NCBI GenBank assembly: GCA_040756475.1 | Contig: JBFLZB010000017.1 | Span: forward strand, 1 to 42,255 | Origin: Thermodesulfobacteriota bacterium | GTDB taxonomy: Bacteria; Desulfobacterota; Deferrisomatia; Deferrisomatales; JACRMM01 | Length of the DNA: 42,255 bases | Direction of reading: 5' to 3' | Shown here: positions 3,627-42,255 of the stretch, one piece after another | Numbering within the stretch: position 1 is the first letter of the stretch | Layout of the letters: each line of letters starts with the position of its first letter | The notes under the pieces: model-generated | Databases searched by the model: none | What the model saw: the letters and a program-made list of their open reading frames with translations, nothing else | Told to the model about the DNA's origin: nothing | Position numbers and translations under genes: made by a program

Positions 3627-3703
3627 GGGCGAGTAGCTCAGCTGGATAGAGCGCAGGTCTCCGGAACCTGAGGCCGTGGGTTCGAATCCCGCCTCGCCCA
3701 CCA
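3627..3703 (+). tRNA. tRNA-Arg (anticodon CCG)
   Basis: A complete cloverleaf: acceptor GGGCGAG pairs with CTCGCCC at 3693-3699; D-arm GCTC/GAGC; anticodon stem CAGGT/ACCTG with loop CTCCGGA, so the anticodon is CCG reading the Arg codon CGG; T-arm GTGGG-TTCGAAT-CCCGC. The 3' ACCA (3700-3703) is genomically encoded. CGG is expected to be a common Arg codon in such a GC-rich genome. Confidence 0.96.
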
Positions 3704-3769: not shown

Positions 3770-3902
3770 CTGCGTCTGACCGGTTCCGCCCTGCCGCCCG
3801 CCCCGCGGCGTTGCCGGAGCCAGGGTGACGCGGGGCAAGGATACAGCCCCGAGGACTTCCCGCAAGCAGGACGAGAGGACGGACCGGACCCCGTGGGCAC
3901 AC

Positions 3903-3963
3903 GGTCCGAATCGAAATCGACCCCGACGCCGACCGCGATTTCGACTCCGATTTCGATCTTGTC
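3903..3963. repeat. Degenerate hexamer-phase repeat (CGATTTCGA / TCGAAATCGA words)
   Basis: A run of six-base units around the core NNNTCG/CGANNN, including AATCGAAATCGA, CGATTTCGA and CGATTTCGATC. The same pattern occurs at 15540-15590 and 18455-18545. It sits in the 436-bp gene-free gap between tRNA-Arg and the homocysteine operon, directly followed by a partial copy of the 205-bp repeat. Confidence 0.7.
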
Positions 3964-4030
3964 GCGGATCGCGCGGCGCAGCGTAGGGGTTCTCCGAACC
4001 CGCTCTCCGCCCAGGCGGTACATCCTGGCC
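3961..4030 (-). repeat. Partial (half) copy C of the 205-bp repeat
   Basis: About 70 bp resemble one end of copy B (3509-3572): GCGGATCGCGCGGCGCAGCG, then GGGGTTCTCCGAACCCGCT, then CAGGCGGTACAT, against GCGGATTGCGGGGCGGAGCG, GGGGCTCCCGGACCCCGCT and CAGGCGGTGGAT. Only one half-element is present, joined to the hexamer-repeat tract. Confidence 0.65.
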
Positions 4031-4045
4031 GGCCAACCCCCTGGA

Positions 4046-4075
4046 CCTCTCGACCCGAGTTGAGGGAGACTCGGG
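4046..4075 (+). promoter_or_regulatory. Two mutually exclusive hairpins in the homocysteine-operon leader
   Basis: CTCTCGAC (4047-4054) can pair with GTTGAGGG (4059-4066) around the tetraloop CCGA. Alternatively CCCGAGT (4054-4060) pairs perfectly with ACTCGGG (4069-4075). The two stems share bases and cannot coexist, as in switch-like leaders. I see no match to a SAM or SAH riboswitch core. The pairings are seen; a regulatory role is inferred. Confidence 0.3.
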
Positions 4076-4139
4076 CCCGCGGACTCGCAGGGACCTGCCG
4101 GCTCCGCCCCCTCCCACACCGCGCCGGAGAACGACCCCC

Positions 4140-23403: not shown

Positions 23404-23509
23404 GGGATGGCTAGGCTGCCTGCGGCGCCCACAGGACATGGCTGCCGCTGCTTCCTTCCGGACCTGACGGGGTTCACCGCGCCTGCGTCGCGCAGGGCCC
23501 AGCCATCCC
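23404..23509 (-). ncRNA. ffs: 4.5S signal recognition particle RNA (small bacterial SRP RNA)
   Basis: The minus strand carries the universal SRP core GTCAGGTCCGGAAGGAAGCA within a hairpin whose ends, GGGATGGCTGGG and GGCAGCCTAGCCATCCC, are complementary. Total length is about 106 nt, typical of the Alu-less form. It binds Ffh for co-translational membrane targeting. The position 38 bp upstream of dnaX is a known arrangement. Confidence 0.96.
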
Positions 23510-23630: not shown

Positions 23631-23720
23631 TGGCGGAGAGGGAGGGATTCGAACCCCCGGTACCCGTAAAGGTACAACAGATTTCGAGTCTGCCGCCTTC
23701 GACCACTCGGCCACCTCTCC
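23631..23720 (-). tRNA. tRNA-Ser (anticodon CGA)
   Basis: The minus strand reads GGAGAGG...CCTCTCC at the acceptor, with a long class II variable arm (TACC..GGTA), T-arm GGGGG-TTCGAAT-CCCTC-like, and encoded GCCA end. Anticodon loop CTCGAAA gives CGA, reading the Ser codon UCG. 90 nt with CCA. Confidence 0.95.
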
Positions 23721-24854: not shown

Positions 24855-27362
24855 ATGAAGAGCACCACCGAACGCAGACTCCTCTTCGCGCTCCTCATGT
24901 CGTCCCTCGTCCCCGTCGTGACCCTGGGGTTCCTCGCCGCGGCGGCGGTACATCGCCTGGGCGAGGCCGTGGAACGGGAGGCTGAGGAAGCGGGCCACGC
25001 CCGCGACCGGGAGGCCCTGGGCACCCTGTGCCGGGAGGCAGCGGACCGGGTGGGGGTCTTTCTGCGGCGCCGGGAGGCAGACCTGCGCGCCCTCACCCTC
25101 ATCCCACGAACGCCTTCGGCCTATGACGCGTTTCGGCGCACGAGCCTCGGCCCCCTGCGCATCGAGTCGGACACCGGCGAGAAGACCCAGGCCTGGTTGC
25201 CGCTCTACACCCTGGTGTCCTTCACGCCCGCCTCCGGGGGCGACCCCGTGGAGGCCTCGGAGCGAAGAGGACCTCCGGCGTCCGACGCCGACGCCCCCCC
25301 GGAGGCAGACTTCCTCCCCAAGACCCTCTCCCTGGCGCCGGACGAAGTCTCCCTCACGCCCGCGCCGCAACACGGCAGGGGGGCGATGCGGCTCGCCCTG
25401 GCGGTGCGCTCGCCGGGCGGCGAAGCGCAGGGCGTCGCCAGCCTGGTGCTCGACCCCCTACAACTGGCGGGCCAACTGCCGCCGCCCGGGGGGAACGTCT
25501 TTTCGCACCCGGAAGTCCGGGATGCCCAGCTCCTGTTCTTCTTCCACAACCGCGCCGCTACCGTCATCGGCCCCCCCGGCCCCCTGCCTGCGCCCCTGGA
25601 ACAGTGCCTGGCCGAGTCCCTGCCGGAGGCCGCCGCCGCCGTGCGGGCCGGTGAGACCGCGGTGCTCGCTCCTTCCGCCTCGGTCGAGCACTGGCGAGCC
25701 TTTGCGCCCTTGCGCCGCGACGGCAGCGGCGACGACCCGGCGCCGGAGATCGTGGGGGGCGTTCTCACGTGCTCGCAGCGGTTCTCAGGATCTCCGGCAG
25801 CAGCGCGCACGCTGGCCAACCGGGCCGAGACCCGGATCGGGGTCCTGACGCTGGCGGCGACCTTCGGGGTGGCCCTGGCGGCGCTGCTGGTCGCCCGGCG
25901 GATGTCCGGACCCTGGGTTCGCCTACGGGAGAAGGCCCGATCCGTGAGCACCGGCGCCGGGGAAGAGGAGGATCGGGACGAGCTCGACGAGATCTCCCGC
26001 TCCTTCGACTCCCTGGCTTCCCGCGTGGCGGCAAGCGACGGCCTGGTGCGCGCCAGCGAGGCGCGGCTGCGAGAGTTTGTCGAGATGAGCCCCGACGGCA
26101 TCGCCGTGGTCGACCCCCACGGCCGCTTTCTCCACTTCAACCGGGCCCTGTGCCAGATCCTGCGCCGGGCGCCGTCCCAGCTCGCCCGGTTGGACAGCGC
26201 CGAGCTCTGGGCCCGCCCGGGGGACCGGGAAAGGATGCTCAGGCAACTCCGAGAGAACGGACGGCTGCGCAACTACGAAGTGGAGCTCGTCCGGGGAGAC
26301 GGCAGGGCGTTCGCGGCGCTCCTGAGCGTGCGCCTCGGGAGCTCGGGCGACGGCGAGTGCCTGGACGTGATCCTCCGGGACGTCTCGGACTGGAAGGAGG
26401 CCCAGCGCCGGGACCGGGAGCAGACCGAGGCCCTCGTCCGGGTACACGGCGAGCTCAACCAGGCCCATCGGGCCCTGCGTCGCGCGTACGCGGAGGTGGA
26501 AGAGCAGGTGCGCCGCCAGACCTCGGAGCTGCGCACCGCCTACGAGGCCCTCCAGACCTCGGACCGGGTCAAGACCGAGTTCCTCATGAAGATGAGTCAC
26601 GAGCTGCGCACCCCGCTCAACTGCATCATCGGGTACTCGGAGGCCATGGGCGACGGCCTGGACGGCCCGGTGACGCCCGACCAGAACCGCAGCCTGGAGC
26701 GGATCGCCCAGAGCGGGCGCCGACTGCTGCGGATGATCGAGGATCTCCTGGACCTCTCGCGGCTGGAGGCAGGCCGGCTCGACATCGCCTGTGCGGAGCT
26801 GCGGTTGGAGGACGTCCTGGAGGATCTGCTCCACCAGGCGCGCAGTCTCGTGGGAGACAGGCCGCTGCGGCTGGAGCTCGCCGTGGAGGAGCCCCTTCCC
26901 CCGGTGTGGGCCGACGCCGATCGAGTGCGTCAGGTGCTCTTCAACCTCCTGGGCAATGCCCTGAAGTTCACGACCGAAGGGTGGGTGCGCATCGAAGCGC
27001 GGCGCCGGGACGCAGCGTCGGTCGAGGTGTGCGTGCGCGACACCGGGCGCGGAATCCCCCCCGAGTTCCTCGACAGCGTGTTCGAGAAGTTCACCCAGAT
27101 CCCCGGAGCCGACCGCACCGGCGCCGGCCTGGGGCTCGCCATCAGCCGCGAAATCGTGGAGGGGATGGGCGGACGCATCTGGGTCGAGAGCGACCTGCAC
27201 CGCGGGAGCTGCTTCGGGTTCACGCTGCCCGTGCGCAGCGGCGCGGGGCAACTGGCGCTGCCGCTGGAAGGCGTCGGGCCCCCCGCCTTCCCTACCCCAG
27301 CAGGGCCAGCCCCGACTGCACCCCCCCCACCAGCGCCCCGAGCACGCCGCCCCACCAGGTGA
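24855..27362 (+). CDS. Membrane-bound sensor histidine kinase (sensor-HAMP-PAS-HisKA-HATPase)
   Basis: 835 residues. TM1 about 9-33, a ~290-residue extracytoplasmic sensor domain (Cache-like in layout, not assigned), TM2 about 327-350, HAMP about 350-400, PAS about 402-515 ('FVEMSPDGIAVVDPHGRFLHFNRALCQIL'), a coiled coil (about 515-570, 'ELNQAHRALRRAYAEVEEQVRRQTSELRTAYEAL' type), HisKA with 'MKMSHELRTPLN' and phospho-acceptor His582, and a HATPase domain with N-box near 697-701, 'DTGRGIPPEF' and 'GAGLGLAIS'. The C-terminal ~40 residues are Pro/Ala-rich. No response-regulator gene is nearby, so it is an orphan kinase. Its last 71 bp overlap, antisense, the 3' end of the DUF445 gene; the Pro-rich tail is the part in the overlap. 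Confidence 0.93.
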   Translation: MKSTTERRLLFALLMSSLVPVVTLGFLAAAAVHRLGEAVEREAEEAGHARDREALGTLCREAADRVGVFLRRREADLRALTLIPRTPSAYDAFRRTSLGPLRIESDTGEKTQAWLPLYTLVSFTPASGGDPVEASERRGPPASDADAPPEADFLPKTLSLAPDEVSLTPAPQHGRGAMRLALAVRSPGGEAQGVASLVLDPLQLAGQLPPPGGNVFSHPEVRDAQLLFFFHNRAATVIGPPGPLPAPLEQCLAESLPEAAAAVRAGETAVLAPSASVEHWRAFAPLRRDGSGDDPAPEIVGGVLTCSQRFSGSPAAARTLANRAETRIGVLTLAATFGVALAALLVARRMSGPWVRLREKARSVSTGAGEEEDRDELDEISRSFDSLASRVAASDGLVRASEARLREFVEMSPDGIAVVDPHGRFLHFNRALCQILRRAPSQLARLDSAELWARPGDRERMLRQLRENGRLRNYEVELVRGDGRAFAALLSVRLGSSGDGECLDVILRDVSDWKEAQRRDREQTEALVRVHGELNQAHRALRRAYAEVEEQVRRQTSELRTAYEALQTSDRVKTEFLMKMSHELRTPLNCIIGYSEAMGDGLDGPVTPDQNRSLERIAQSGRRLLRMIEDLLDLSRLEAGRLDIACAELRLEDVLEDLLHQARSLVGDRPLRLELAVEEPLPPVWADADRVRQVLFNLLGNALKFTTEGWVRIEARRRDAASVEVCVRDTGRGIPPEFLDSVFEKFTQIPGADRTGAGLGLAISREIVEGMGGRIWVESDLHRGSCFGFTLPVRSGAGQLALPLEGVGPPAFPTPAGPAPTAPPPPAPRARRPTR

Positions 27363-29586: not shown

Positions 29587-29707
29587 GGGCCGGGTGCTAA
29601 AAGCCGGTACCCTGTCCCGGTGCGCCGCCCTCCCGGGTGCCGCCGCGCGAACGCCGTCCGCCAGACCGATCTTCCCACACCCCACGTCTCGAACGAGGAG
29701 GAGCACG

Positions 29708-32700
29708 ATGTCCACCCGCCGCCAGATCACCATCGAAGGCAATGAGGCCGTAGCCTCTGTGGCCCACCGCTTGAGCGAGGTGATCGCCATCTACCCCATC
29801 ACGCCGTCGTCGGGCATGGGGGAGTTCTCAGACGAGTGGTCTGCGAAGGGCTCGAAAAACGTCTGGGGTACCGTGCCCCAGGTGACCGAGATGCAGTCCG
29901 AGGGGGGCGCCGCCGGGGCGGTGCACGGCGCGCTCCAGGCCGGCGCGCTCACCACGACCTTCACGGCCAGCCAGGGGCTGCTCCTGAAGATTCCCAACAT
30001 GTTCAAGATCGCGGGCGAGCTGACCTCGTTCACCATGCACGTCTCGGCCCGGACCCTGGCCAGCCAGGCGCTCTCCATCTTCGGCGATCACTCCGACGTG
30101 ATGGCCGCCCGCCAGGCCGGGTTCGCCATGCTCGCTTCCGGTTCGGTGCAGGAGGCCCATGATCTGGCGTGCGTCGCCCACAGCGCCACCCTCCAGGCCC
30201 GGGTGCCGTTCCTCCATTTCTTCGACGGCTTCCGCACTTCCCACGAGGTGGCGAAGATCGAGGAGCTCACCGACGCCGACCTCCTGGCCATGATGGACGA
30301 GGAGCTCATCGGCGCCCACCGGGAGCGGGCGCTCTCCCCGGACCGGCCCAAGATCCGCGGCACGGCCCAAAATCCCGACACGTTCTTCCAATCTCGAGAG
30401 GCCTGCAACCCCTTCTACGCAGCCTGTCCCGGCGTGGTCCAGGAGACCATGGACCGGTTCGCGAAGCTCACGGGCCGCAGGTACAAGCTCTTCGATTACG
30501 TTGGAGACCCCAAGGCCGAGCGGGTGGTCGTGATGATGGGCTCGGGGGCCGACGTGGCCCATGAGACCGTGGAGTACCTCGCGGGCAAGGGCGAGAAGGT
30601 GGGGTTGTTGAAGGTGCGCCTCTTCCGGCCGTTCTCGGTCAAGCACCTGAGCGCGGCACTCCCGAAGTCGGCGCGGGCGATCGCCGTGCTCGACCGCACC
30701 AAGGAGCCCGGCGCCACCGGCGAGCCCCTGTACCAGGACGTGGTGACGGCGCTCGTGGAGGCCGGTAGGGCCGGCGACCTGCGGATCATCGGCGGCCGCT
30801 ATGGCCTCTCCTCCAAGGACTTCAGCCCCGCCATGGTCAAGGCTGTGTTCGACGAGCTCAAGAAGAAGAAGGCCAAGAACCACTTCACCGTGGGCATCAC
30901 CGACGACGTTTCGAACACCAGCCTCTCCTTCGATCCCGACTTCGCCATCGAGCCCAAGGACGTGGTGCGTTGCGTCTTCTGGGGACTCGGGGCCGACGGC
31001 ACCGTCGGCGCGAACAAGAACTCGATCAAGATCATCGGCGAGGAGACCGACAACTTCGCCCAGGGCTACTTCGTCTACGACTCCAAGAAGTCCGGCGGCG
31101 TCACCGTGTCGCACCTGCGCTTCGGGCCCCGCCAGATCCGCTCGAGCTACCTTGTCAAGCAGGCGAGCTTCGTCGCCTGCCACGCCTACAGCTTCCTCGA
31201 GAAGTACGACGTGCTGGGCTTCGCCGCGCCGGGCGCGACCTTCCTTCTCAACGCCCCCATGGGCGCCGAGGCCGCCTGGGACCACCTGCCCTGCGAGGTG
31301 CAGGAACAGATCATCGCCAAGAAGCTCAATCTGTACGTGATCGACGCCTACGACGTAGCCAAGAAGACCGGCATGGGCACCCGCATCAACACGATCATGC
31401 AGACCTGCTTCTTTGCCATCTCGGGCGTACTGCCCCGGGGCGAGGCGATCGCCAAGATCAAGGAGTCGATCGAGAAGACTTACGGCAAGAAGGGCGAGGC
31501 CGTGGTTCAGAAGAACTTCGAGGCGGTGGACGAGACCTTGGCGAACCTCCACGAGATCAAGGTCCCCAAGAAGACCACCTCCACCTGCTACCGGCCGCCG
31601 ATCATCTCGGCCAAGGCCCCGGAGTTCGTGCGCAAGGTCGAAGGCGCCATGATGGCGCTCAAGGCCGACGACCTGCCGGTGAGCGCCTTCCCGGTGGACG
31701 GCACCTGGCCGGTGGGCACCACCCGGTGGGAGAAGCGCAACATCGCGCTCGACATCCCGGTGTGGGAGCCGGGGATCTGCATCCAGTGCGGCAAGTGCTC
31801 CTTCGTCTGCCCGAGCGGCACCATCCGGCCCAAGGTGTACGACGCGGCGCTGCTGGCCGAGGCCCCGGCGACCTTCAAGAGCGCCGACGCCAAGGCCAAG
31901 GACCACAAGGGCCTGAAGTGGACGATCCAGGTGGCCCCCGAGGACTGCACCGGGTGCAGGGTATGCGTCATGACCTGTCCGGCCAAGGACAAGGCCAACC
32001 CCAGCCGCAAGGCCATCAACATGGAACCCCAGCTCCCGCTGCGGGAGACGGAGAGGGAGAACTGGGCGTTCTTCCTGACCCTGCCCCACGTGGACCGGAC
32101 TACGGTCAAGACCGACGTCAAGGGCACGCAACTGCTGGAACCGCTCTTTGAGTTCTCGGGCTGCTGCGCGGGCTGCGGGGAGACGCCCTACATCAAGCTC
32201 ATGACGCAGCTCTTCGGCGACCGGATGATGATCGCCAACGCCACGGGCTGCTCGTCGATCTACGGCGGCAACCTGCCCACCACCCCTTACACGTCCAACG
32301 CCGAAGGCCGTGGGCCCACCTGGTCGAACTCGCTCTTCGAGGACAACGCCGAGTTCGGCTTTGGCATGCGCCTGGCGGTGGACAAGCACCACGAGCAGGC
32401 GGCGGAGCTCCTTCGGGCCCTGGCCCGCAAGGTCGGCGACGAGCTGGTGCAGGCGCTTCTCACCGCCGACCAGACCGACGAGGCCGGCATCGCGGCCCAG
32501 CGGGCGCGGGTGGCCGAGCTCCAGGCCAAGCTCAAGAAGCTCCGGTCGGCCGAGGCCAAGCGGCTGCTGGACCTCTCCGAATACCTGGTGAAGAAGAGCG
32601 TCTGGGTGCTCGGGGGCGACGGCTGGGCCTACGACATCGGGTACGGGGGCCTCGACCACGTGCTGGCCATGGGACGGGACGTGAACATCCTGGTCATGGA

Positions 32701-33262
32701 CACCGAGGTGTACTCCAACACCGGCGGACAGATGTCCAAGTCGACCCCCATGGGCGCGGCGGCCAAGTTCGCGGCTGCCGGCAAGGGGATGTACAAGAAG
32801 GACCTGGGCCTCATGGCCATGACCTACGGCCACGTCTACGTGGCGAAGGTGGCCTTCGGCGCCAAGGATCAGCAGACGGTGAAGGCCTTCGCCGAGGCCG
32901 AGAGTTACCCCGGCACCTCTCTCATCATCGCCTACAGCCCGTGCATCGCCCACGGCTATGACCTGGCCCAGGGGCCCGAGCAGCAGAAGCTCGCGGTGGA
33001 CTCGGGGCACTGGCCGCTCTACCGTTTCGACCCGCGGCTGCGGCTCCAGGGCAAGAATCCCTTGCAGCTCGACTCGGGGGCCCCAAAGATCGACCTCGAG
33101 GACTACATCTACAACGAAACCCGCTACCGGATGCTGCGGGACCTGGATCCGGAGCGGGCCAAGGCGCTGCTGGGCTGCGCCCAGGCGGGGGTGACGAGCC
33201 AGTGGAACCTGTACGAACAGCTCGCCAAGCTCCACGTGGGCCAAAGCACCGGGGGAGCGTAG
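29708..33262 (+). CDS. nifJ: Pyruvate:ferredoxin (flavodoxin) oxidoreductase, single-chain
   Basis: 1184 residues from ATG 29708 (GAGGAGGAG upstream; the longer frame is non-conserved). Domain order is that of one-chain PFOR: 'TIEGNEAVASVAHRLSEVIAIYPITPSS' pyrimidine-binding domain, domain with 'YRLFRPFS'-like 'VRLFRPFSVKHL', gamma domain with 'WGLGADGTVGANKNSIKII', 2x[4Fe-4S] insert (Cys691/694/697/701 and Cys747/750/753/757), and the thiamine-diphosphate domain with proximal-cluster Cys 819/820/823 region, 'GGDGWAYDIGYGGLDH' and 'DTEVYSNTGGQMSKSTPMGA'. It interconverts pyruvate+CoA and acetyl-CoA+CO2 with ferredoxin. The C-terminal protective extension of the Desulfovibrio africanus enzyme is not evident. 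A DHOD-like gene follows 50 bp downstream. Confidence 0.97.
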   Translation: MSTRRQITIEGNEAVASVAHRLSEVIAIYPITPSSGMGEFSDEWSAKGSKNVWGTVPQVTEMQSEGGAAGAVHGALQAGALTTTFTASQGLLLKIPNMFKIAGELTSFTMHVSARTLASQALSIFGDHSDVMAARQAGFAMLASGSVQEAHDLACVAHSATLQARVPFLHFFDGFRTSHEVAKIEELTDADLLAMMDEELIGAHRERALSPDRPKIRGTAQNPDTFFQSREACNPFYAACPGVVQETMDRFAKLTGRRYKLFDYVGDPKAERVVVMMGSGADVAHETVEYLAGKGEKVGLLKVRLFRPFSVKHLSAALPKSARAIAVLDRTKEPGATGEPLYQDVVTALVEAGRAGDLRIIGGRYGLSSKDFSPAMVKAVFDELKKKKAKNHFTVGITDDVSNTSLSFDPDFAIEPKDVVRCVFWGLGADGTVGANKNSIKIIGEETDNFAQGYFVYDSKKSGGVTVSHLRFGPRQIRSSYLVKQASFVACHAYSFLEKYDVLGFAAPGATFLLNAPMGAEAAWDHLPCEVQEQIIAKKLNLYVIDAYDVAKKTGMGTRINTIMQTCFFAISGVLPRGEAIAKIKESIEKTYGKKGEAVVQKNFEAVDETLANLHEIKVPKKTTSTCYRPPIISAKAPEFVRKVEGAMMALKADDLPVSAFPVDGTWPVGTTRWEKRNIALDIPVWEPGICIQCGKCSFVCPSGTIRPKVYDAALLAEAPATFKSADAKAKDHKGLKWTIQVAPEDCTGCRVCVMTCPAKDKANPSRKAINMEPQLPLRETERENWAFFLTLPHVDRTTVKTDVKGTQLLEPLFEFSGCCAGCGETPYIKLMTQLFGDRMMIANATGCSSIYGGNLPTTPYTSNAEGRGPTWSNSLFEDNAEFGFGMRLAVDKHHEQAAELLRALARKVGDELVQALLTADQTDEAGIAAQRARVAELQAKLKKLRSAEAKRLLDLSEYLVKKSVWVLGGDGWAYDIGYGGLDHVLAMGRDVNILVMDTEVYSNTGGQMSKSTPMGAAAKFAAAGKGMYKKDLGLMAMTYGHVYVAKVAFGAKDQQTVKAFAEAESYPGTSLIIAYSPCIAHGYDLAQGPEQQKLAVDSGHWPLYRFDPRLRLQGKNPLQLDSGAPKIDLEDYIYNETRYRMLRDLDPERAKALLGCAQAGVTSQWNLYEQLAKLHVGQSTGGA

Positions 33263-33312: not shown

Positions 33313-34314
33313 ATGGATCTGTCCACCACCTATCTGGGGCTGAAGCTCTCCAACCCGCTCATCCCCGGGGCCTCGCCCCTGACCGACGATCTGGGCACCG
33401 CCAAGCGCCTCGAAGATGCCGGAGCACCGGCGCTTGTGCTCCCCAGCCTCTTCGAGGAGCAGATCGAGAACGAGCAGTTTCGGGAAGTGCAGGACGTTGA
33501 GGCCGCGGAGGGCACCTTTGCAGAGGCCCTCACCTACTTCCCCCGGCGCGACGAGTACCGTGTGATCGGTCCCGACCGGTACCTGGAAATCGTCCGCAAG
33601 GTGAAGGAGGCGGCGGGAGTACCCGTGATCGCTTCCCTCAACGGCGTCTCCGACGGCACATGGGTCGACTACGCACGCCTGTGCCAGGAGGCCGGGGCGG
33701 ACGCCCTGGAGCTCAACGTCTACCTCGTCGCAGCCGATCCCGACGTCGCGGGATCAACGGTGGAGGACCGGATCGTCCGGGCGGCCAGGGCCGTGAAGAC
33801 CGCGGTGCGCATCCCGGTGGCCGTGAAGCTCTCACCCTACTTCTCGTCACTGCCCCACATGGCGAAGCGGCTCGAAGAGACGGGCGCCGACGGCCTGGTG
33901 CTCTTCAACCGCTTCTATCAACCCGAGATCGACCCGGAAGCCCTCGAAGTGGTTCCGAAGCTTCGGCTCTCCGACTCATCGGAGCTCCTCCTGAGGCTTC
34001 GGTGGCTCGCGATCCTCTCGGGCCGCGTGAATCTGAGCCTGGGGGCCACCGGCGGGGCTCACACCGCCGCCGACGCGGTCAAGGCCATCATGGCGGGCGC
34101 CCACGGGGTCCAGATGGTCTCGGCCCTACTCAGGAACGGCCCCGCCCACCTGACGAAGGTCCGCGACGAGCTCTCCGCGTGGATGGAGGCCCACGGGTAC
34201 GAGTCCGTGGCCCAGATGCGGGGTTGCATGAACCTCTCCAGGAGCCCCAACCCCGCCGCCTTCGAGCGGGCGAACTACATCAAGGTGCTGCAAGGGGGGG
34301 TGAAGCGGGTGTAG
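33313..34314 (+). CDS. Dihydroorotate dehydrogenase-like flavoprotein linked to PFOR
   Basis: 333 residues, AAAGGAG 8 bases before ATG. TIM-barrel DHOD features: 'MDLSTTYLGLKLSNPLIPGASPLTDD', 'PVIASLNGVSDGTWVDYARLCQEAGADALELNVY', 'IPVAVKLSPYFSSLPHMAKRLEETGADGLVLFNR', 'GATGGAHTAADAVKAIMAGAHGVQMVSALL'. Typical FMN-binding segments are present, but the family is the divergent group often encoded beside PFOR, not in a pyr cluster. The 50-bp spacing from the PFOR gene suggests cotranscription. True dihydroorotate oxidation is uncertain; another FMN-dependent reaction tied to ferredoxin metabolism is possible. Confidence 0.88.
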   Translation: MDLSTTYLGLKLSNPLIPGASPLTDDLGTAKRLEDAGAPALVLPSLFEEQIENEQFREVQDVEAAEGTFAEALTYFPRRDEYRVIGPDRYLEIVRKVKEAAGVPVIASLNGVSDGTWVDYARLCQEAGADALELNVYLVAADPDVAGSTVEDRIVRAARAVKTAVRIPVAVKLSPYFSSLPHMAKRLEETGADGLVLFNRFYQPEIDPEALEVVPKLRLSDSSELLLRLRWLAILSGRVNLSLGATGGAHTAADAVKAIMAGAHGVQMVSALLRNGPAHLTKVRDELSAWMEAHGYESVAQMRGCMNLSRSPNPAAFERANYIKVLQGGVKRV

Positions 34315-36313: not shown

Positions 36314-37339
36314 ATGAAGCTCAGCGGGACCATCGCGCCGGCCTTGTCGGGACACGTCTCGGGGTTCGACCTGTTCGACGTGACCCAGCTGCTGTGCCTG
36401 AGCGGCCGGAGCCGCATCCTGCGGGTGAGCTTCGGCGACCGCCGGGGCACCCTGGTCTTCGAGCAGGGCGCCCTCACCCACGCCTCGACCCCGAGCGCGG
36501 GGGGGCAGGATGCGTTCTTCGAAATCGCCCAGTGGACGGGGGGAAGCTTCGAGAGCGTGGACGCGGCGGAGGCAGGAACGTTCCCGCCCAACATTCACGT
36601 GCCCACCATGCACCTGCTCATGGAGTCGGCCCGCCGGAAGGACGAGGGCGAGGGCGCCCCTCCCGCGTTGCCGCCGGAGGAGGCGGAGGAGCCCGCGGAA
36701 GTGCCGGCCGAGGGAGCCCTCGCCTGGGACAGCCCCGCACACGACCGGCTGTGGGACGAGCTGGCCACGATCCAGCAGGAAGTGGCCGAGGAGCTCGCTG
36801 CCGGCGTCGCGGCACCGGTTCCGGCGCGGGAGGTGCCTTCGGGAACCTCCGAGCAGGCCCCTGCGCCGGCAGCGGCGGAGCCCGTGCCGGATGGGGGTCC
36901 GCCCGGGGAGGAGCCCTGGTGGCGTCAGGTCACCGCCCGCTGGGGCGAGGCCGTGCAGGTCGTAGTGGCCTGGCCCCCCGAGGCAGGCTGGGACCAGGCC
37001 GCCGCCGAGGTACGACGCCTCGCGAAGGTGGCGGGGGCCAAGCCGCCTGCCGACCTCCTTTCGGCCACCGGCCCCTCCTTTGTGCGCATCTACCCCGAGG
37101 CGGGGGGCATCCTCTCCCTGGTCTTCCTGGGCATCTCCAAGCGGCACCGCTTTCTCTTCGAGACGCTGGTGCGCTCCGCCCACGCGGCCCTGGTTCCCCG
37201 GGAGTGCGCCGGCAGCGAGACCCAGCACTGGATGGGCGCCCTCCCGGCCACGCTCGACTGGTGTGTCGTGGCTCCCGATTCCGACGGCTGCTGGGGCTTT
37301 TCCGATCGGCTCCGGGAGCTCGCAGGGAATGCGTCGTGA
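36314..37339 (+). CDS. DUF4388 (PATAN-domain) protein
   Basis: 341 residues from ATG 36314; the longer frame to 36149 has no conserved residues. N-terminal DUF4388/PATAN domain: 'MKLSGTIAPALSGHVSGFDLFDVTQLLCLSGRSRILRV' with 'GTLVFEQGALTHASTPSAGGQDAFFEIAQWTGGSF'. A Pro/Glu/Ala-rich linker (about 105-205) leads to a C-terminal domain of about 130 residues ('WDQAAAEVRRLAKVAGAKPPADLL', 'FLGISKRHRFLFETLVRSAHAAL') I do not recognise. PATAN proteins typically act with Roadblock proteins and small GTPases in polarity, motility or signalling. Two Roadblock genes follow directly, in line with that. Confidence 0.82.
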   Translation: MKLSGTIAPALSGHVSGFDLFDVTQLLCLSGRSRILRVSFGDRRGTLVFEQGALTHASTPSAGGQDAFFEIAQWTGGSFESVDAAEAGTFPPNIHVPTMHLLMESARRKDEGEGAPPALPPEEAEEPAEVPAEGALAWDSPAHDRLWDELATIQQEVAEELAAGVAAPVPAREVPSGTSEQAPAPAAAEPVPDGGPPGEEPWWRQVTARWGEAVQVVVAWPPEAGWDQAAAEVRRLAKVAGAKPPADLLSATGPSFVRIYPEAGGILSLVFLGISKRHRFLFETLVRSAHAALVPRECAGSETQHWMGALPATLDWCVVAPDSDGCWGFSDRLRELAGNAS

Positions 37340-37423
37340 CCTACGCGAAGAACCCACCCCGCGTGAGGGCTCTGATCGAGACCCCGTAACCCGTTCCACC
37401 CGCACGACCAAAGGAGCAGACCC

Positions 37424-37792
37424 ATGGCGACCCGAGCCGAACAAATGCAGCAGGTGATGCGCACCCTGGTGACCAACACCCCCGACCTGGAAGGGGCGGC
37501 CATGGTGAGCACCGACGGCCTGGTCCTGTCTTCCGTGCTCCCGGCCGGAACCGACGAGGACCGGGTCTCCGCCATGGCGGCGGCCCTCCTCTCCCTGGGG
37601 GAGCGCACCGCCCAGGAGCTCCAGCGGGGAACCCTGGAGCAGGTGTACGTGAAGGGGAACGCCGGCTACATCATCCTGATGCAGGCGGGTCCCGAGGCGG
37701 TGCTCGAAGCCATCGCCGGGGCCAACGCCAAGCTGGGCATGGTGCTGCTCGACATGAAGCGCGCCGCCCAAGAGCTCACGAGGCTCGTCTAG
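37424..37792 (+). CDS. Roadblock/LC7-domain protein 1 (MglB-like)
   Basis: 122 residues, AAAGGAG 8 bases before ATG. The single Roadblock/LC7 fold is indicated by 'VMRTLVTNTPDLEGAAMVSTDGLVLSSVLPAGTDEDRVSAMAAALLSLGERTAQELQRG' and 'EQVYVKGNAGYIILMQAGPEAVLEAIAGANAKLGMVLLDMKRAA'. Such proteins form dimers that act as activators or platforms for Ras-like GTPases (MglB for MglA). No GTPase gene is present in the window. Two bp separate its stop from the next Roadblock gene. Confidence 0.9.
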   Translation: MATRAEQMQQVMRTLVTNTPDLEGAAMVSTDGLVLSSVLPAGTDEDRVSAMAAALLSLGERTAQELQRGTLEQVYVKGNAGYIILMQAGPEAVLEAIAGANAKLGMVLLDMKRAAQELTRLV

Positions 37793-37794
37793 CC

Positions 37795-38193
37795 ATGTTC
37801 GCCCAGCGGGCCCGACAACTCCACGAGGTCCTCATGGCGGTCCTGGTCCGGGTCCGCGACATCCGCGGCCTCGTCCTGGTGGACCCCGACGGCCTGGTCC
37901 TGGTCTCCACCCTCGACTCCCGGGCGCTGGAGGAGTCCCTCGGCGCCTTCGCGGCCGCGGTGCTCCCCGCGCTGCACCGGGCGCGGCAGGACTTCGAGAT
38001 GGGGCCCTTGCAGCTGGGCCACGTGGCCGCCCGGGACCGGCAGATCTTCATCACCCCCGTGACGGAGGACGTAGCCCTCCTGGCCGTCGCCGACTCCGGG
38101 GCCACCTCGGCGACCATCGCCCTGCACCTGCTCTCCCTGACCCGGGAGATCCTGGGCGTGGTGACGCGCCCGGCCGAAGGCCCCGAAGCCTGA
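37795..38193 (+). CDS. Roadblock/LC7-domain protein 2
   Basis: 132 residues starting 2 bp after the first Roadblock gene, so probably translationally coupled. 'IRGLVLVDPDGLVLVSTLDSRALEESLGAFAAAVLPALHRARQDFEMG', then 'HVAARDRQIFITPVTEDVALLAVADSGATSATIALHLLSLTREIL', matches the Roadblock pattern but is clearly diverged from the first copy. It may form a heterodimer with it. The role relative to the downstream hydrogenase is unknown. Confidence 0.8.
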   Translation: MFAQRARQLHEVLMAVLVRVRDIRGLVLVDPDGLVLVSTLDSRALEESLGAFAAAVLPALHRARQDFEMGPLQLGHVAARDRQIFITPVTEDVALLAVADSGATSATIALHLLSLTREILGVVTRPAEGPEA

Positions 38194-38221
38194 CCCGCTG
38201 GAACGAGAGGAGGCATACGCC

Positions 38222-38710
38222 GTGGATCGACAACTGGAGACCCTCCACAAGGCATCCTACTTCCTGGGGGCCCTGGCCCACGGGGCCGAGCAGAACCTGG
38301 GCCGGGGAAGCCTCTCCTTCGGCCTCCTGGCCGGGAAGAAGTTCGGGATCGAGGCCGTAGAGGGAGCCGAGACCACCAGCGATCCCTACCGGGCCCTGGA
38401 GATTCTGCGGGCGGCCCTGGCCGCCAAGGGCATCCGGTGGGACTTCGAGCCCTTTGCCGGGGCACGAGAGAGCGCACTGCAGCAGGAAGGCTCCACCCGG
38501 CGCCTGCGGCTGGTCTTTCACACCTGCATGGTCCGAAACGCCCTGTTTCGCTACGCCCACGAGCAGAAGCAACTGCTCTGCTACATGGCCCACGGGGTCT
38601 TCGCCGGGGCGATGGAGCGGGTGATGCCGGGGACCACGGTGAAGCTCGAAATCGCGCACGCCGGGCCCAACGCGTGCCTCAAGGACATGATCTGGGAGGT
38701 GAAGCCATGA
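38222..38710 (+). CDS. Three-cysteine (V4R-like) protein preceding the hydrogenase
   Basis: 162 residues from GTG 38222, with GAGAGGAGG 9 bases upstream. Its C-terminal half carries His100-x-Cys102, Cys120 and Cys152 in the order 'VFHTCMVRNAL', 'QLLCYMAHGVFAGAMERV', 'NACLKDMIWEV'. This closely parallels the C-terminus of the ferredoxin-fusion protein at 41101 (Cys179, Cys197, Cys228), with identical 18-residue spacing between the first two Cys and 32 against 31 between the next. The layout recalls V4R small-molecule-binding domains, some of which bind metal through Cys. Its stop overlaps the hydrogenase small-subunit start (ATGA), implying tight coupling. Function is not established. Confidence 0.75.
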   Translation: MDRQLETLHKASYFLGALAHGAEQNLGRGSLSFGLLAGKKFGIEAVEGAETTSDPYRALEILRAALAAKGIRWDFEPFAGARESALQQEGSTRRLRLVFHTCMVRNALFRYAHEQKQLLCYMAHGVFAGAMERVMPGTTVKLEIAHAGPNACLKDMIWEVKP

Positions 38711-39621
38711 AGGCGCGCATCTCCACCGAGTGGCTCTCGGGGTGCTCCGGCTGCCACGTGGCGGTGGTGGACCTGCACGAGAAGCTCGTCAACCTGGCCG
38801 AGCACGCCCAGTTCGTGCGGCTGCCGGTGCTCGCCGACGAGAAGGGCTATCCCGAGGCCGACATCGGCATCGTGGAGGGGGCGGTGCGCAGCGATCACGA
38901 CCGGGAGTGCCTGCTGCGCATGCGCGAGAGCGTAAAGACGCTGGTGGCCTTCGGGAGCTGCGCCGTCTACGGGGGACCTTCGGGGCTGGGATGGCTCTAC
39001 GGCAAAGACGCGGTGATGGAAACCGTGTACCGGGAGGGTCCCACCAACGCCGGCGGACCCGGCCCGGATGCCGCCGCGGTGCCCCTGGAAGAGAGCGTGG
39101 TACCCATCGACGAAGTGGTCCCCGTGGACTTCTACCTCCCCGGGTGCGCACCCCATCCCTACTTCATCGCCGCGGGGCTCGGCGCCCTCCTGGGCGGCAA
39201 GGGCACCCCCTTGACCGAGAAGACCGTCTGCTCCGAGTGCACGCGAAAGATGCGCAAGCGCCCGGGAGTGGCGCTGCGCAAGGGCGCCGTCACGGCCGAG
39301 GAGCCCGACGTGTGTTTCCTCAGCCAGGGGGTGGTCTGCCTGGGATCGGTCACCCTCAACCGGTGCAAGGCGCCCTGTCCGGCGGCCGGCACGGCCTGCG
39401 CCGGGTGCGCGGGTCCCTCGCTGGACGTGATTACCGAGCCCCACCTGGACCTGCGAAACCTCGTGGCCACGCGGATGCACAAGCTCACCGGGCTCGAGCC
39501 GTCCGCGGTCAAGGCCTATTTCGAGGAGAACGCCGCCACGTTCTACGCCTACGCCCTGGCCTCCCCGGTGCTCTACAAGAAGCCCACGGTGGAGCTGCGC
39601 GAATGGATCGGGGGGCGATGA
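38707..39621 (+). CDS. [NiFe] hydrogenase small subunit, group 3-like (MvhG/HoxY-type)
   Basis: 304 residues starting in the ATGA overlap. No Tat signal peptide, so it is cytoplasmic. Proximal [4Fe-4S] ligands Cys13 and Cys16 ('WLSGCSGCHVAVVDL'), Cys85 ('FGSCAVYGG') and Cys147 ('YLPGCAPHP'). The C-terminal part has further clusters: Cys175/178 ('CSECTRKMRKRPG'), Cys203/211, and Cys220/224/231/234 ('NRCKAPCPAAGTACAGCAGPS'). This is the arrangement of cytoplasmic group 3 (F420-non-reducing/Mvh-like) small subunits. It passes electrons between the NiFe site and partner iron-sulfur proteins. No HdrA, MvhD or HoxEFU gene is in the window. Confidence 0.92.
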   Translation: MKARISTEWLSGCSGCHVAVVDLHEKLVNLAEHAQFVRLPVLADEKGYPEADIGIVEGAVRSDHDRECLLRMRESVKTLVAFGSCAVYGGPSGLGWLYGKDAVMETVYREGPTNAGGPGPDAAAVPLEESVVPIDEVVPVDFYLPGCAPHPYFIAAGLGALLGGKGTPLTEKTVCSECTRKMRKRPGVALRKGAVTAEEPDVCFLSQGVVCLGSVTLNRCKAPCPAAGTACAGCAGPSLDVITEPHLDLRNLVATRMHKLTGLEPSAVKAYFEENAATFYAYALASPVLYKKPTVELREWIGGR

Positions 39622-39700
39622 CCGCCCGGCGCGCGCCCGAGCACGGCCCATGGGGGGCACCGCAACCGCCAGCTCGAACCGGATGAGAAGAGGAAACGCC

Positions 39701-41104
39701 ATGGGACAGACCATCGTCGTCAGCCCGGTGACCCGCATCGAGGGCCACGCCCGCATCGCCCTGGACCTGGACGACCAGGGCGCGGTGACCAAGGGCCACC
39801 TCCAAGTCCTCGAGATCCGGGGCTTCGAGAAACTGCTCCTGGGGATGGAGCTCTCCAAGATGCCCCTCATGACGGCGCGCCTGTGCGGCGTCTGCCCCGC
39901 TGCCCACCACCTGGCCTCGGTAACCGCCATCGAGGGGGGGTTGGGGGTCGCCCCTCCCGCCGACGCGGCGCTCCTTAGGGAGCTGCTGTACGCCGGGCAC
40001 ATCCTCCACTCCCACGCCCTGAGCAACTTCGTGCTCTCGGGCCCGGACCTCTTCCTGGGGATCGGAGCCCCGCCCGAGACGCGAAACGTCTTCCACCTGC
40101 TCGTCGCAGACCCCGACCTCGCCAAGAAGATCCTGCGGCTGCGAAGCCTGGGCCAGCGCACCGTGGAGGTCGTGGGAGGCCGGGGGATCCACCCGGTGAC
40201 CGTGATCCCCGGGGGGATGAGCTTCCGACCCGCGCCCAAGGACCTGGAGACCATCGCCGGGTGGGGCGCCGAGGCCCTGGCGCTGCTCGCAGAGCTGGGA
40301 GCCGTCCTGCAAAAGGGGCTCGCCGCCCTGGCCGATCTGCGCGACCGGCTGGCGATTCCCTACCCGCCCCTGGCCTTTGCCCGGGACGGGCGGCACACCT
40401 TCCTGGGCGGCGAGATCGTGGTCCCCGCCGGCTCCCACGGGCCGGAGCGCCGGTTTGCCCCCGCCGCCTACGCCGAGCACCTGGTGGAGCACGCGGTGCC
40501 GGGCTCCTACATGAAGACCGTGCGCCTGCGGGGAACCCCCGAGGCAAGCTTCTTCGTGGGCCCGCTGGCCCGGCTGCGGGTGAGCGCGTCGCTCTCCACC
40601 CCGCTCGCCGACCAGAAGCTCCAGGCCTTTCGCGAGCGCCAGGGGCCGCAGGCGTGCGCCCTGGACAACGTGGAGGCCCGCTGGATCGAGATGCTCCACT
40701 GCGCCGAGCGCATGGCCCGCATCCCCGTCGAGCTCCAGGGCGGGCCCCTGGCCATCCCCGTGGAGATCCGGGCGGGTCGCTACGCCGGCGCCATCGAGGC
40801 ACCCCGGGGTCTCCTGGTGCACGACTACACCGCCGACGCCCAGGGCAAGCTGACGGCCGTGAACCTGATCGTCGCCACCCAGAACAACTACGACGCCATG
40901 GACCACGCCGTGACCTCCGTAGGGGGCCACTTCGCGGGCCGCGGCGACGACAACCTGCTCCTGAACGGGATGGAGTTCGCCCTGCGCTGCTACGACCCCT
41001 GCCTGGCCTGCGCCACCCACCTGGCTGGGCGGATGCCCCTGGAGGTGGAGGTGCGCCGGGGGGGCCGAACCCTTCGGACCATCTCGAGGAGGACCGCGCC
41101 ATGA
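39701..41104 (+). CDS. [NiFe] hydrogenase large subunit, group 3-like
   Basis: 467 residues from ATG 39701 (AGAAGAGG upstream). 'VSPVTRIEGHARI' start; nickel ligands in 'RLCGVCPAAHH' (Cys62, Cys65) and 'YDPCLACATH' (Cys434, Cys437). His440 is the expected cleavage point, leaving a 27-residue C-terminal extension to be removed by the protease encoded at 41808. It holds the NiFe(CN)2CO site for reversible H2 activation. The ATGA overlap with the next gene shows operon structure. Subgroup cannot be fixed by eye; the motifs fit group 3 (Mvh/Frh/Hox-like). Confidence 0.95.
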   Translation: MGQTIVVSPVTRIEGHARIALDLDDQGAVTKGHLQVLEIRGFEKLLLGMELSKMPLMTARLCGVCPAAHHLASVTAIEGGLGVAPPADAALLRELLYAGHILHSHALSNFVLSGPDLFLGIGAPPETRNVFHLLVADPDLAKKILRLRSLGQRTVEVVGGRGIHPVTVIPGGMSFRPAPKDLETIAGWGAEALALLAELGAVLQKGLAALADLRDRLAIPYPPLAFARDGRHTFLGGEIVVPAGSHGPERRFAPAAYAEHLVEHAVPGSYMKTVRLRGTPEASFFVGPLARLRVSASLSTPLADQKLQAFRERQGPQACALDNVEARWIEMLHCAERMARIPVELQGGPLAIPVEIRAGRYAGAIEAPRGLLVHDYTADAQGKLTAVNLIVATQNNYDAMDHAVTSVGGHFAGRGDDNLLLNGMEFALRCYDPCLACATHLAGRMPLEVEVRRGGRTLRTISRRTAP

Positions 41105-41811
41105 TCACCGTCTCGATAGACGAGAAGGCCTGCGTGGGATGCAGCCTGTGCGCCGACGCCTGCCCCACCGGCGTCTTCACCTTCGACGCCGCGGCCGACC
41201 TGCCCCGGGTGAGCGAACCCCGGGAGTGCTTCGGGTGCCTGAGCTGCTCCGAGATCTGCCCGGCCACGGCGATCTCCCACGGGGAGCTCCCCCTCTCGGA
41301 GAGCTTCTACCACGATCCCTACGCCCTGCGCCTCGCGGGCCTGCTCACCGGGAACGGCGGACCGCGCGTCCACGTGCCCGAGGACCGGGCCGGAGGCCTG
41401 GCGGACCTGGGTGTTCGGCTGCTCTCCGTGGCCTGGGTGCTCAAGGACATCATGGGCAACGGCCTGCCCGTGGTGGGGACCATCGCCGGGCGCACCCTGG
41501 CGAACCAGCTGCCCCGGTACCAGCCGCCCCGCAACCTGCCGGAAGCCCTGGAGCTGGCCCGGCGCGAGTTCCATCCCGCGTGGGAGCTCTCCGCCCGCGC
41601 CGAAGGAGACAGCCTCAGCGTGGAGATCGGGGGCTGCGTGCTGCGCGACCTGTGCGCCCGGGAGAAGGTGGAGCTGGGAGGGGAGCTGTGCGTCCTCTTC
41701 TTCAACTATCTGGGGGGCTACCTCTCCCACATGGGGAAGACGCGCCTGAAACCCGTGGGGGCGACCCGGGGCGCCGAGCGCTGCGCGTACCAGTGGAAGC
41801 GCGTGGATTGA
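41101..41811 (+). CDS. 2x[4Fe-4S] ferredoxin fused to a three-cysteine (V4R-like) domain
   Basis: 236 residues, start overlapping the large-subunit stop. N-terminal two-cluster ferredoxin: Cys11-x2-Cys14-x2-Cys17-x3-Cys21-Pro and Cys43-x2-Cys46-x2-Cys49-x3-Cys53-Pro. After a linker, the C-terminal ~130 residues carry 'IGGCVLRDLC', 'GGELCVLFFNYLGGYLSHM', 'RCAYQWK' (Cys179, Cys197, Cys228), matching the small protein at 38222. The ferredoxin part is the likely electron partner of the hydrogenase; the fused domain may sense or bind a ligand. Its stop overlaps the maturation protease start. Confidence 0.85.
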   Translation: MITVSIDEKACVGCSLCADACPTGVFTFDAAADLPRVSEPRECFGCLSCSEICPATAISHGELPLSESFYHDPYALRLAGLLTGNGGPRVHVPEDRAGGLADLGVRLLSVAWVLKDIMGNGLPVVGTIAGRTLANQLPRYQPPRNLPEALELARREFHPAWELSARAEGDSLSVEIGGCVLRDLCAREKVELGGELCVLFFNYLGGYLSHMGKTRLKPVGATRGAERCAYQWKRVD

Positions 41812-42255
41812 GCCAGGCCCGCCGGGCCCGGATCGCCGTCATCGGGATCGGAAACCCCATCGCCGGCGACGACGGAGCCGGTATCCACGTGGCCCGCCGG
41901 CTCGCCCGGGCGTTCGCCGCCGAACCCCGGGTGTACGTGGCCGAGTGGGAGGGGGACCTCTTCGGCCTCGCCGACGTGCTGCCCCGGGCCGAGCGGTTCG
42001 TCCTGGTGGACGCCGCGGTGGGCGACCGTCCCGGGGAGGTGCGCCGGTTCGACCGGGGCTCGACATGGTTTGCCCCTTCGTTCCACCAGCTCGACGCCGG
42101 CACCGTGCTGCGGGCCCTGGAAGCCCTGGGCACGGTGGCTCCCTTTCCCCCCTGGGAGCTCTGGGGCATCACCGCGCGGCTTCCCTGCCAGTTCGGCGAG
42201 GAGCTGAGCCCCGAGGTGGAAGAAGCGGTGACACAGGTGGCGGCGGCGCTCGAGC
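41808..42255 (+). CDS. Hydrogenase maturation protease (HycI/HoxM/FrhD-type), 3' end outside window
   Basis: Partial: 149 codons open to the window edge. The start is a TTG at 41808 in a TTGA overlap with the previous stop; no other in-frame start precedes the conserved N-terminus. Motifs: 'IAVIGIGNPIAGDDGAGIHVARRL' (nickel-binding Asp in GDDGAG), 'RFVLVDAAVG' (second Asp) and 'PSFHQLDAGTVLRALEALG' (His). It removes the C-terminal peptide of the hydrogenase large subunit once nickel is inserted, so it belongs to this operon. Confidence 0.92.
   Translation, partial: MSQARRARIAVIGIGNPIAGDDGAGIHVARRLARAFAAEPRVYVAEWEGDLFGLADVLPRAERFVLVDAAVGDRPGEVRRFDRGSTWFAPSFHQLDAGTVLRALEALGTVAPFPPWELWGITARLPCQFGEELSPEVEEAVTQVAAALE

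Follow-up and report, generated by a model that had tools for sequence, protein, structure and literature searches.

The window analysed here comprises 42,255 bases and represents an entire contig of a Thermodesulfobacteriota bacterium. At its end we found a [NiFe]-hydrogenase operon preceded by genes for a DUF4388/PATAN protein and two Roadblock/LC7 proteins (Table 1). All genes of the set from position 36314 to 42255 that an earlier note on this DNA had placed in one direction are real and lie on the plus strand; the last one, encoding the maturation protease, is truncated at the contig end. The DUF4388/PATAN gene and the first Roadblock gene are separated by 84 bp, the two Roadblock genes by 2 bp, and the second Roadblock gene and the gene of a Cys-rich protein, named CysA, by 28 bp. 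Overlaps of 4 bp connect CysA with the small subunit, the large subunit with a ferredoxin fused to a second Cys-rich domain (CysB), and this fusion gene with the protease, while a gap of about 79 bp lies between the small and large subunits. Our scan of the operon, which is weak in GC-rich DNA, revealed no promoter-like site and only one terminator-like site, on the minus strand within the large-subunit gene. With neither kind of site at 38193–38222, nothing visible interrupts the transcript there, and a transcript break at this junction was rejected on the basis of this weak scan. A defence system was also rejected, as PADLOC gave no match for the proteins P0001, P0003, P0004 (CysA) and P0007.

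Table 1. Genes of the hydrogenase operon at the end of the window and the evidence for their assignment.
Feature	Position	Strand	Evidence
DUF4388/PATAN protein, 341 aa, with C-terminal extension	36314..37339	+	Pfam PF14332, E 1.3e-17
Roadblock/LC7 protein 1	37424..37792	+	PF03259, E 7.6e-20
Roadblock/LC7 protein 2	37795..38193	+	PF03259, E 1.7e-9; 29% identity to Roadblock 1
CysA, predicted V4R/TRAPPC3 fold	38222..38710	+	40-sequence alignment, AF2 model, Foldseek
[NiFe]-hydrogenase small subunit, MvhG-like	38707..39621	+	NCBIfam VhuG 4e-59 (best NCBIfam match); PDB 5odc_E 2.7e-63
[NiFe]-hydrogenase large subunit, MvhA-like	39701..41104 (alternative start 39650)	+	NCBIfam VhuA 5e-77; motifs; tree
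Ferredoxin domain with two [4Fe-4S] clusters, fused to CysB	41101..41811	+	Pfam Fer4 matches, AF2, Foldseek, CysA-CysB homology
Hydrogenase maturation protease, 3' end missing	41808..42255	+	TIGR00072, E 1.5e-24

Five other MAGs contain the five-gene core of the operon with unchanged gene order, at 36–78% identity. Contig ends apart, the core of CysA, small subunit, large subunit, ferredoxin, CysB and protease is found in 25 loci that we named type A and in 31 that we named type B. Type A comprises the window, Desulfuromonadales and Fermentibacterota and usually adjoins Roadblock/PATAN genes, often accompanied by a gene for a Ras-like GTPase or by histidine kinase and response regulator genes. 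Type B occurs in one class of the same phylum, and its core is followed by a soluble chemoreceptor. CysA and the hydrogenase subunits are approximately 40% identical between the two types, and the fusion of ferredoxin and CysB is a feature of type A. The genomes of five weakly matching loci from other groups lack CysA.

The earlier note had made the meaning of the Roadblock genes depend on their presence beside homologous operons elsewhere, and they are indeed present: of the 21 type A loci whose flanking sequence is long enough, 18 have Roadblock/PATAN genes at a distance of no more than 8.5 kb, and most of these have a GTPase gene there too. Since the six Roadblock/PATAN-linked type A genomes that we counted have only 1–5 Roadblock genes each, such proximity is expected by chance at approximately 0.8–2.4% per genome. 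The genes are found in at least four arrangements (upstream on the same strand, upstream and divergent, downstream and convergent, or as a receiver–PATAN–Roadblock fusion). In locus L004, the gene for this fusion protein lies directly upstream of CysA and is itself preceded by a histidine kinase gene; L004, L005 and L079 all have adjacent histidine kinase and response regulator genes. In type B, a soluble HAMP_2/MCP chemoreceptor gene is located directly downstream of the core in all loci that extend far enough (30/30), and a CheW gene directly upstream in 18 of 31. No membrane-like segment was found in these MCPs, the maximum 19-residue hydropathy being 1.48. Beside 18 further hydrogenase loci in these genomes, there is no Roadblock, PATAN, GTPase or CheW gene and a single weak MCP-like match. 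The gene set is not fixed: type B lacks Roadblock genes and some type A genomes carry the module elsewhere. In a subclade without linkage to the Roadblock module, a V4R-type protein is encoded upstream.

The closest sequence relatives of the two subunits are group 3 [NiFe] enzymes (VhuG/VhuA, 5odc, 7t2r and 5xf9). The small subunit has 12 cysteine residues that are invariant in 56 sequences, leaving room for three [4Fe-4S] clusters. The large subunit of the window contains RLCGVC and DPCLACATH motifs and a C-terminal tail of 27 residues. Among 51 large subunits, the L1 motif RxCGxC is present in 50, the exception having unreadable bases at this position, and the L2 motif DPCxxCxxH in all; thus the NiFe motifs are intact in every readable sequence. 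The large subunit of group 2b H2 sensors is not known to carry a cleavable C-terminal tail or to be C-terminally processed, whereas the enzymes studied here have tails of 23–33 residues and a protease gene in the operon. In our tree, the large subunits of the type A and type B loci form a single clade (100/100), within which each type is itself a clade (100/100 each). The MvhA references fall outside this clade, with the deep branching order unresolved, and the Hdr-linked and Hox hydrogenases that these genomes also encode belong to other clades. Reading by eye, we found HdrA- and MvhD-like genes adjoining other hydrogenases (L156 and L010) and Hox-like genes at L158, which belongs to a different clade. 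Among solved structures, the small subunit is nearest to the group 3c MvhADG-HdrABC complexes (PDB 5odc and relatives), and the large subunit is likewise MvhA-like. Unlike group 3c, the enzymes form a separate clade with signalling genes as partners; MvhD and HdrA are missing both from the window operon and from the conserved core of its relatives. Hox genes, including those for the HoxF/HoxU diaphorase partners of group 3d, are also absent from the operon, in agreement with the earlier observation that it has no HdrABC/MvhD or HoxEFU partner.

CysA shows no match to any Pfam (V4R included) or NCBIfam model. A 40-sequence alignment reveals three invariant cysteines (C102, C120 and C152) and an invariant histidine (H113), and CysB has four invariant cysteines. 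Although BLAST detects no similarity between CysA and CysB (E 1.1), profile-profile comparison (95% probability, E 1.8e-8) indicates that the two are homologous. The operon had been described as bracketed by two copies of a three-cysteine domain; the relationship of the two copies is invisible to BLAST, and the second copy has four invariant cysteines. The AF2 models of CysA and the ferredoxin–CysB protein have pLDDT values of 85 and 90, respectively. In Foldseek searches, both domains match solved V4R/TRAPPC3 structures with a probability of 1.00 (best E 1e-4 to 1e-3, TM approximately 0.5–0.7), and the top matches include the PoxR/MopR phenol sensor domains and the lipid-binding Bet3. Structure comparison therefore predicts a V4R/TRAPPC3 fold like that of PoxR/MopR sensor domains and TRAPP subunits, with cysteines on the last helix and strands, while profile comparison of CysA with the V4R protein from L006 gave no direct match. 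CysA and CysB differ from known V4R/TRAPPC3 proteins in their low identity (approximately 10–16%), in being missed by the Pfam V4R model and in their coupling to a ferredoxin and a hydrogenase.

The best matches of Roadblock 1 are Roadblock proteins adjoining homologous hydrogenases (53% identity in L005 and 52% in L079), and the hydrogenase-linked Roadblocks are separated from MglB-like Roadblocks in a tree (93/92). The C-terminal part of the PATAN protein resembles hydrogenase-linked receiver–PATAN proteins (L079, E 4e-4; L005, E 0.004). A pseudo-GTPase in this part, suggested by eye, was rejected (hhalign probability 6%, no HMM match). Five MglA-like matches are found elsewhere in the source genome and none in the window operon; adjacent Roadblock and Ras-like GTPase genes are seen in Fermentibacterota. 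Roadblock is found in 19 of 20 genomes with CysA (one being a fragment) and in 8 of 22 Fermentibacterota genomes lacking CysA (Fisher p 7.5e-5, for related and hence non-independent genomes). The pairing of Roadblock and hydrogenase is thus not exclusive. In a Sabulitectum-like subclade, the Roadblock/PATAN/GTPase module is unlinked from the hydrogenase. The MglA/MglB polarity module and the Streptomyces conservons (PMC4316618) combine Roadblock with a Ras-like GTPase, as the Fermentibacterota loci do, and sometimes with a histidine kinase, but in the present loci the Roadblocks form a group apart from the MglB-like proteins and are accompanied by PATAN and a hydrogenase.

The earlier note knew of no related system. 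However, in Geobacter sulfurreducens the eight genes GSU2416–2423 have been annotated as a cluster for a cytoplasmic hydrogenase of the Mvh type that includes the methyl-accepting chemotaxis protein MvhV (PMC7894505, PMC8691401); there it was treated with regard to H2 production and not as a sensor. Type B likewise has eight genes (CheW, CysA, small subunit, large subunit, ferredoxin, CysB, protease and MCP) and probably corresponds to this cluster, equated here by hydrogenase type, gene count and the presence of an MCP. Type A differs from it in the fused ferredoxin–CysB, the Roadblock/PATAN (GTPase) neighbours and the lack of MCP and CheW. A survey of the chemotaxis genes of Geobacter makes no mention of hydrogenase in its main text (PMC2577667). 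Part of the HydDB description (PMC5037454) covers regulatory [NiFe] groups 2b (HupUV/HoxBC with a histidine kinase) and 2c and the putatively chemotactic [FeFe] group C2, in which a hydrogenase serves, or is proposed to serve, as an H2 sensor feeding a kinase, cyclase or chemoreceptor; that part names no sensory group 3 enzyme. These systems belong to a different hydrogenase group or use a different metal, and the present large subunit retains its cleavable tail and protease. Our searches of the literature on hydrogenases with Roadblock proteins, on DUF4388 and MvhV and on H2 taxis returned nothing on such a system: in the literature searched, we found neither type A nor a unified sensor interpretation.

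The occurrence of signalling neighbours instead of metabolic partners in dozens of genomes suggests that these enzymes probably serve to sense H2, not to live on it. In our view, the product of the operon is probably a cytoplasmic hydrogenase that senses H2: its electrons would reach the Cys domains by way of ferredoxin, and these domains would switch the signalling module encoded nearby; the direction of the signal and the mechanism are what we infer. H2 would be split at the mature, intact NiFe site; from there the small subunit, with its three [4Fe-4S] clusters, would conduct the electrons to the ferredoxin domain and its two clusters. The electrons may then alter the redox or metal state of CysB and CysA, which would hand a conformational signal to the adjoining output module. 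In the window lineage, the output would be the Roadblock pair and the PATAN protein, elsewhere joined by a Ras-like GTPase or by a receiver and histidine kinase, and in type B the soluble chemoreceptor with CheW. Sabulitectum silens is described as non-motile (PMC5763382), so the output there is not simply motility. A bolder version, which we regard as distinctly unlikely, is an H2-driven bacterial analogue of the eukaryotic TRAPP/Ragulator-type control of GTPases, in which two TRAPPC3-fold proteins switched by hydrogenase electrons would act on Roadblocks and a Ras-like GTPase; dissolved H2 would thereby directly set a small-GTPase switch.

Besides an H2-sensing device, the earlier note had offered a ferredoxin-linked hydrogenase under the control of its neighbours, and such a metabolic role is the main alternative. 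The enzyme would be an H2:ferredoxin oxidoreductase for fermentative H2 release or uptake, with the platform of Roadblock and PATAN proteins, together with the V4R-fold domains, controlling its activity or cellular position, information thus flowing from the module to the enzyme. The complete catalytic motifs, the processing tail and dedicated protease, the two-[4Fe-4S] ferredoxin domain and the existence of the signalling module as an independent device without hydrogenase agree with this role. The tail and protease, as in metabolic enzymes, the ferredoxin, which could equally supply metabolism, the occurrence of the module without hydrogenase and the lack of a GTPase or histidine kinase gene in the window operon speak against a sensor. 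In addition, a possible role of G. sulfurreducens Mvh in H2 production has been discussed (PMC7894505), and the obligate fermenters of the Sabulitectum study were reported to transcribe H2-producing hydrogenases (PMC5763382). On the other hand, the core encodes no electron-accepting oxidoreductase, and the sister clade has swapped the Roadblock set for a chemoreceptor and CheW, input-receiving devices with CheA as their target, for which no control of enzymes is known. Because of this swap we favour the H2 sensor and consider the metabolic role unlikely. It is quite improbable that the operon encodes a two-input switch, in which the V4R/TRAPPC3-fold domains would sense a small molecule, as PoxR/MopR sense phenols, and the hydrogenase would set their redox or metal state. 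The phenol sensor and Bet3 matches, the hydrophobic cavities and the four-Cys zinc site linking the sheet to the last helix in V4R/TRAPPC3 proteins (PMC10933270), and the upstream V4R-type protein of the unlinked subclade are consistent with this idea, but the modest TM-scores and the missing Pfam V4R match of CysA argue against it. An ordinary group 3c hydrogenase beside unrelated signalling genes is highly improbable and already contradicted, despite the numerous MCP genes of related lineages (18–34 mcp genes in Geobacter genomes; PMC2577667), by the MCP and Roadblock/PATAN linkages, retained through rearrangements and a gene fusion and absent, save the one weak match, from the control hydrogenases.

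H2 is among the main currencies of anaerobic syntrophy. What is known of its sensing by anaerobes is limited to a few systems of the respiratory type (group 2) and some proposed ones of the [FeFe] kind. If the H2-sensor interpretation is true, an entire clade of group 3 [NiFe] enzymes, cytoplasmic and hitherto counted as metabolic, would be sensors serving two outputs unrelated to each other: arrays of chemoreceptors and Roadblock/GTPase/PATAN switches. Dozens of genomes would then receive corrected annotations, in a genetically tractable organism the orphan chemoreceptor MvhV would gain a stimulus, and H2-directed behaviour would become testable.

The eight genes listed in the earlier note for the window's hydrogenase operon are all real, lie on the same strand and are tightly packed. 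The small subunit is most similar to VhuG and PDB 5odc chain E, and the large subunit to VhuA, 7t2r and 5odc, which makes this an MvhAG-type hydrogenase. The window spans a whole contig of its genome, and the protease gene runs off the contig end. A scan of the operon found no promoter-like sites and just one terminator-like site, which falls inside the large-subunit gene on the minus strand. Upstream of the operon are genes for a PAS-histidine kinase and pyruvate:ferredoxin oxidoreductase; after these come genes for a dihydroorotate-dehydrogenase-like protein, DUF3047 and a Sel1-repeat protein. The kinase gene and the Roadblock/PATAN set are separated by about 9 kb.

Coordinates of features in the window and at related loci (L-numbers)
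Feature	Sequence	Position	Strand	Remark
CysA (P0004)	window	38222-38710	+	
Ferredoxin-CysB (P0007)	window	41101-41811	+	CysB is the C-terminal domain
PAS-histidine kinase	window	24855-27362		
Pyruvate:ferredoxin oxidoreductase	window	29594-33262		
Dihydroorotate-dehydrogenase-like	window	33313-34314		
tRNA gene	window	3627-3703	+	ordinary
SRP RNA	window	23406-23504	-	ordinary
tRNA gene	window	23631-23720	-	ordinary
V4R-type protein	L006	6028-6672	-	also carries XylR_N
Split hydrogenase genes	L008	7662-10700		Sabulitectum silens MAG
Chemoreceptor	L023	13491-15098		type B
Chemoreceptor	L024	14030-15559		type B
Chemoreceptor	L025	4072-5652		type B
Weak MCP-like match	L164 (G265:C39)	~3882-5099		

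A pattern scan with P0007 retrieved five full-length relatives, all from MAGs that belong to Desulfuromonadales, to Fermentibacteria or to a deltaproteobacterium in the same family as the window, and all five keep the order CysA-small-large-ferredoxin/CysB-protease. The CysA profile was positive in 20 of 42 Fermentibacterota genomes, in 32 of 277 from another class of the window's phylum, and in only 5 of 395 sampled across the phylum. Flanking regions were mapped with HMMs built for this analysis, and twenty flanking proteins were checked against Pfam. The CysA-associated large subunits form one clade (100/100), apart from the MvhA and HoxH references and from the Hdr-linked and Hox enzymes that these genomes also encode. 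It divides into two subclades (100/100 each), type A with Roadblock/PATAN neighbours and type B with a chemoreceptor (MCP). We do not claim a new HydDB class, because the tree does not resolve the deep order.

CysA has no match in Pfam or NCBIfam, and BLAST detects no similarity between CysA and CysB. Their profiles align, over 139 columns with 95% probability (E 1.8e-8). In CysA, C102, C120, C152 and H113 are invariant in a 40-sequence alignment, and CysB keeps four cysteines (C78, C84, C96 and C127 in domain numbering; 32 sequences). The AlphaFold models are good (pLDDT 85 for CysA and 90 for CysB). Foldseek comparisons assign the two domains to the V4R/TRAPPC3/BcsD/H-NOX fold group; CysA is closest to Bet3/TRAPPC3 and to PoxR and MopR, which are phenol sensors, and CysB to YslB, BcsD and MopR. 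In solved V4R/TRAPPC3 proteins, the last helix is linked with the sheet by a four-cysteine zinc site (PMC10933270). The cysteines of CysB fall in similar secondary-structure elements (strand 70-78, helices 79-86 and 94-110, strand 127-134), where they may form a redox-active or metal site.

In type A, ferredoxin and CysB are fused. Among 25 such loci, 18 have the Roadblock/PATAN module, four are too short to judge and three (L006, L109 and L114) lack it nearby; these three all have a V4R-type protein upstream, and in two of the three genomes the module is on another contig (L182 and L194). In the subclade with the hydrogenase unlinked from the module (these three and L064), the V4R-type gene lies upstream of CysA and is encoded on the other strand. 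The usual Fermentibacterota order is Roadblock-Roadblock-GTPase-PATAN-DnaA-like ATPase-CysA, with L007 and L008 as exceptions. This phylum's module regularly includes the DnaA-like AAA+ ATPase, whether or not it lies beside the hydrogenase; the ATPase gene stands between PATAN and CysA at L111, L115, L118, L123 and L125, and also occurs at L187-L189, L193 and L194. The L008 copy matches Pfam Bac_DnaA. At that locus the small, large and ferredoxin genes are split over several frames, probably through sequencing errors. At L004, one protein combines receiver, PATAN and Roadblock; its gene lies immediately upstream of CysA and follows that of a histidine kinase. At L005 and L079 the set comprises two Roadblocks, a kinase and a receiver-PATAN protein, located downstream and convergent at L005, and upstream and divergent at L079. 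The kinase belongs to the set at these last two loci, unlike the distant kinase of the window. A separate PATAN-Roadblock fusion protein lies away from the hydrogenase locus at L177 (G395:C193).

The type B order is CysA-small-large-ferredoxin-CysB-protease-MCP; here ferredoxin and CysB are encoded by separate genes. The protease HMM misses some of these loci; in two of them, L024 and L025, the protease was read by eye. All 30 loci long enough to show it have the MCP, and CheW is directly upstream in 18 of 31. The MCP contains two stretches each of HAMP_2 and MCPsignal, and hydropathy reveals no membrane segment. In the L023, L024 and L025 receptors the hairpin tip is SNLLGVNAAIEAAHVEGAGN, preceded by a second tip-like segment, which may indicate an unusual signalling bundle. 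Both types occur together in one genome, G613 (L079 and L083), which makes it a natural setting for comparison.

Six genomes have one to five Roadblock genes each, so a Roadblock would fall within the 24-kb neighbourhood by chance in about 0.8-2.4% of cases per genome; it does so in five of the six. The linkage is kept through rearrangement and fusion. At 18 other hydrogenase loci of the same genomes we found no Roadblock, PATAN, GTPase or CheW, and one weak MCP-like match; this lies at L164, a short way upstream of a different hydrogenase, one from the Hdr-linked clade. Among the proteins compared, those most similar to the window's PATAN and Roadblock 1 are their hydrogenase-linked counterparts at L005 and L079. 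Hydrogenase-linked Roadblocks split from MglB-like ones with 93/92 support, on a short domain with long branches.

Type B has probably been annotated already, since the Geobacter sulfurreducens Mvh cluster (GSU2416-2423), mentioned in connection with H2 production, contains the chemoreceptor MvhV (PMC7894505, PMC8691401). The part of the HydDB description used here gives [NiFe] groups 2b and 2c and the putative chemotactic [FeFe] group C2 as sensory, and names no sensory group 3 [NiFe] enzyme (PMC5037454). In the open-access literature we found neither type A nor a homologous V4R-fold pair described, nor both types treated as one sensor family, which does not prove absence.

The NiFe ligands are intact, the large subunit has a tail of 23-33 residues, and 12 small-subunit cysteines, enough for three clusters, are kept in 56/56 sequences. 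The tail and the operon's protease point to normal maturation. Given these features, the enzyme should react with H2. Electrons would leave through the only exit encoded, the ferredoxin with two clusters that is fused to CysB or lies next to it. The Roadblock module also occurs without the hydrogenase, which counts against a dedicated hydrogenase-module pair, and a regulated metabolic enzyme is a possible alternative. The same occurrence is expected if the module serves as an output that can take different inputs and the core is a sensor. Sensing is also favoured by the pairing of one core with two signalling outputs that are unrelated, a soluble chemoreceptor plus adaptor being one of them. 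Thus, the core probably works as an H2 sensor. In Fermentibacterota it may control something other than motility, as Sabulitectum silens has been called non-motile (PMC5763382).
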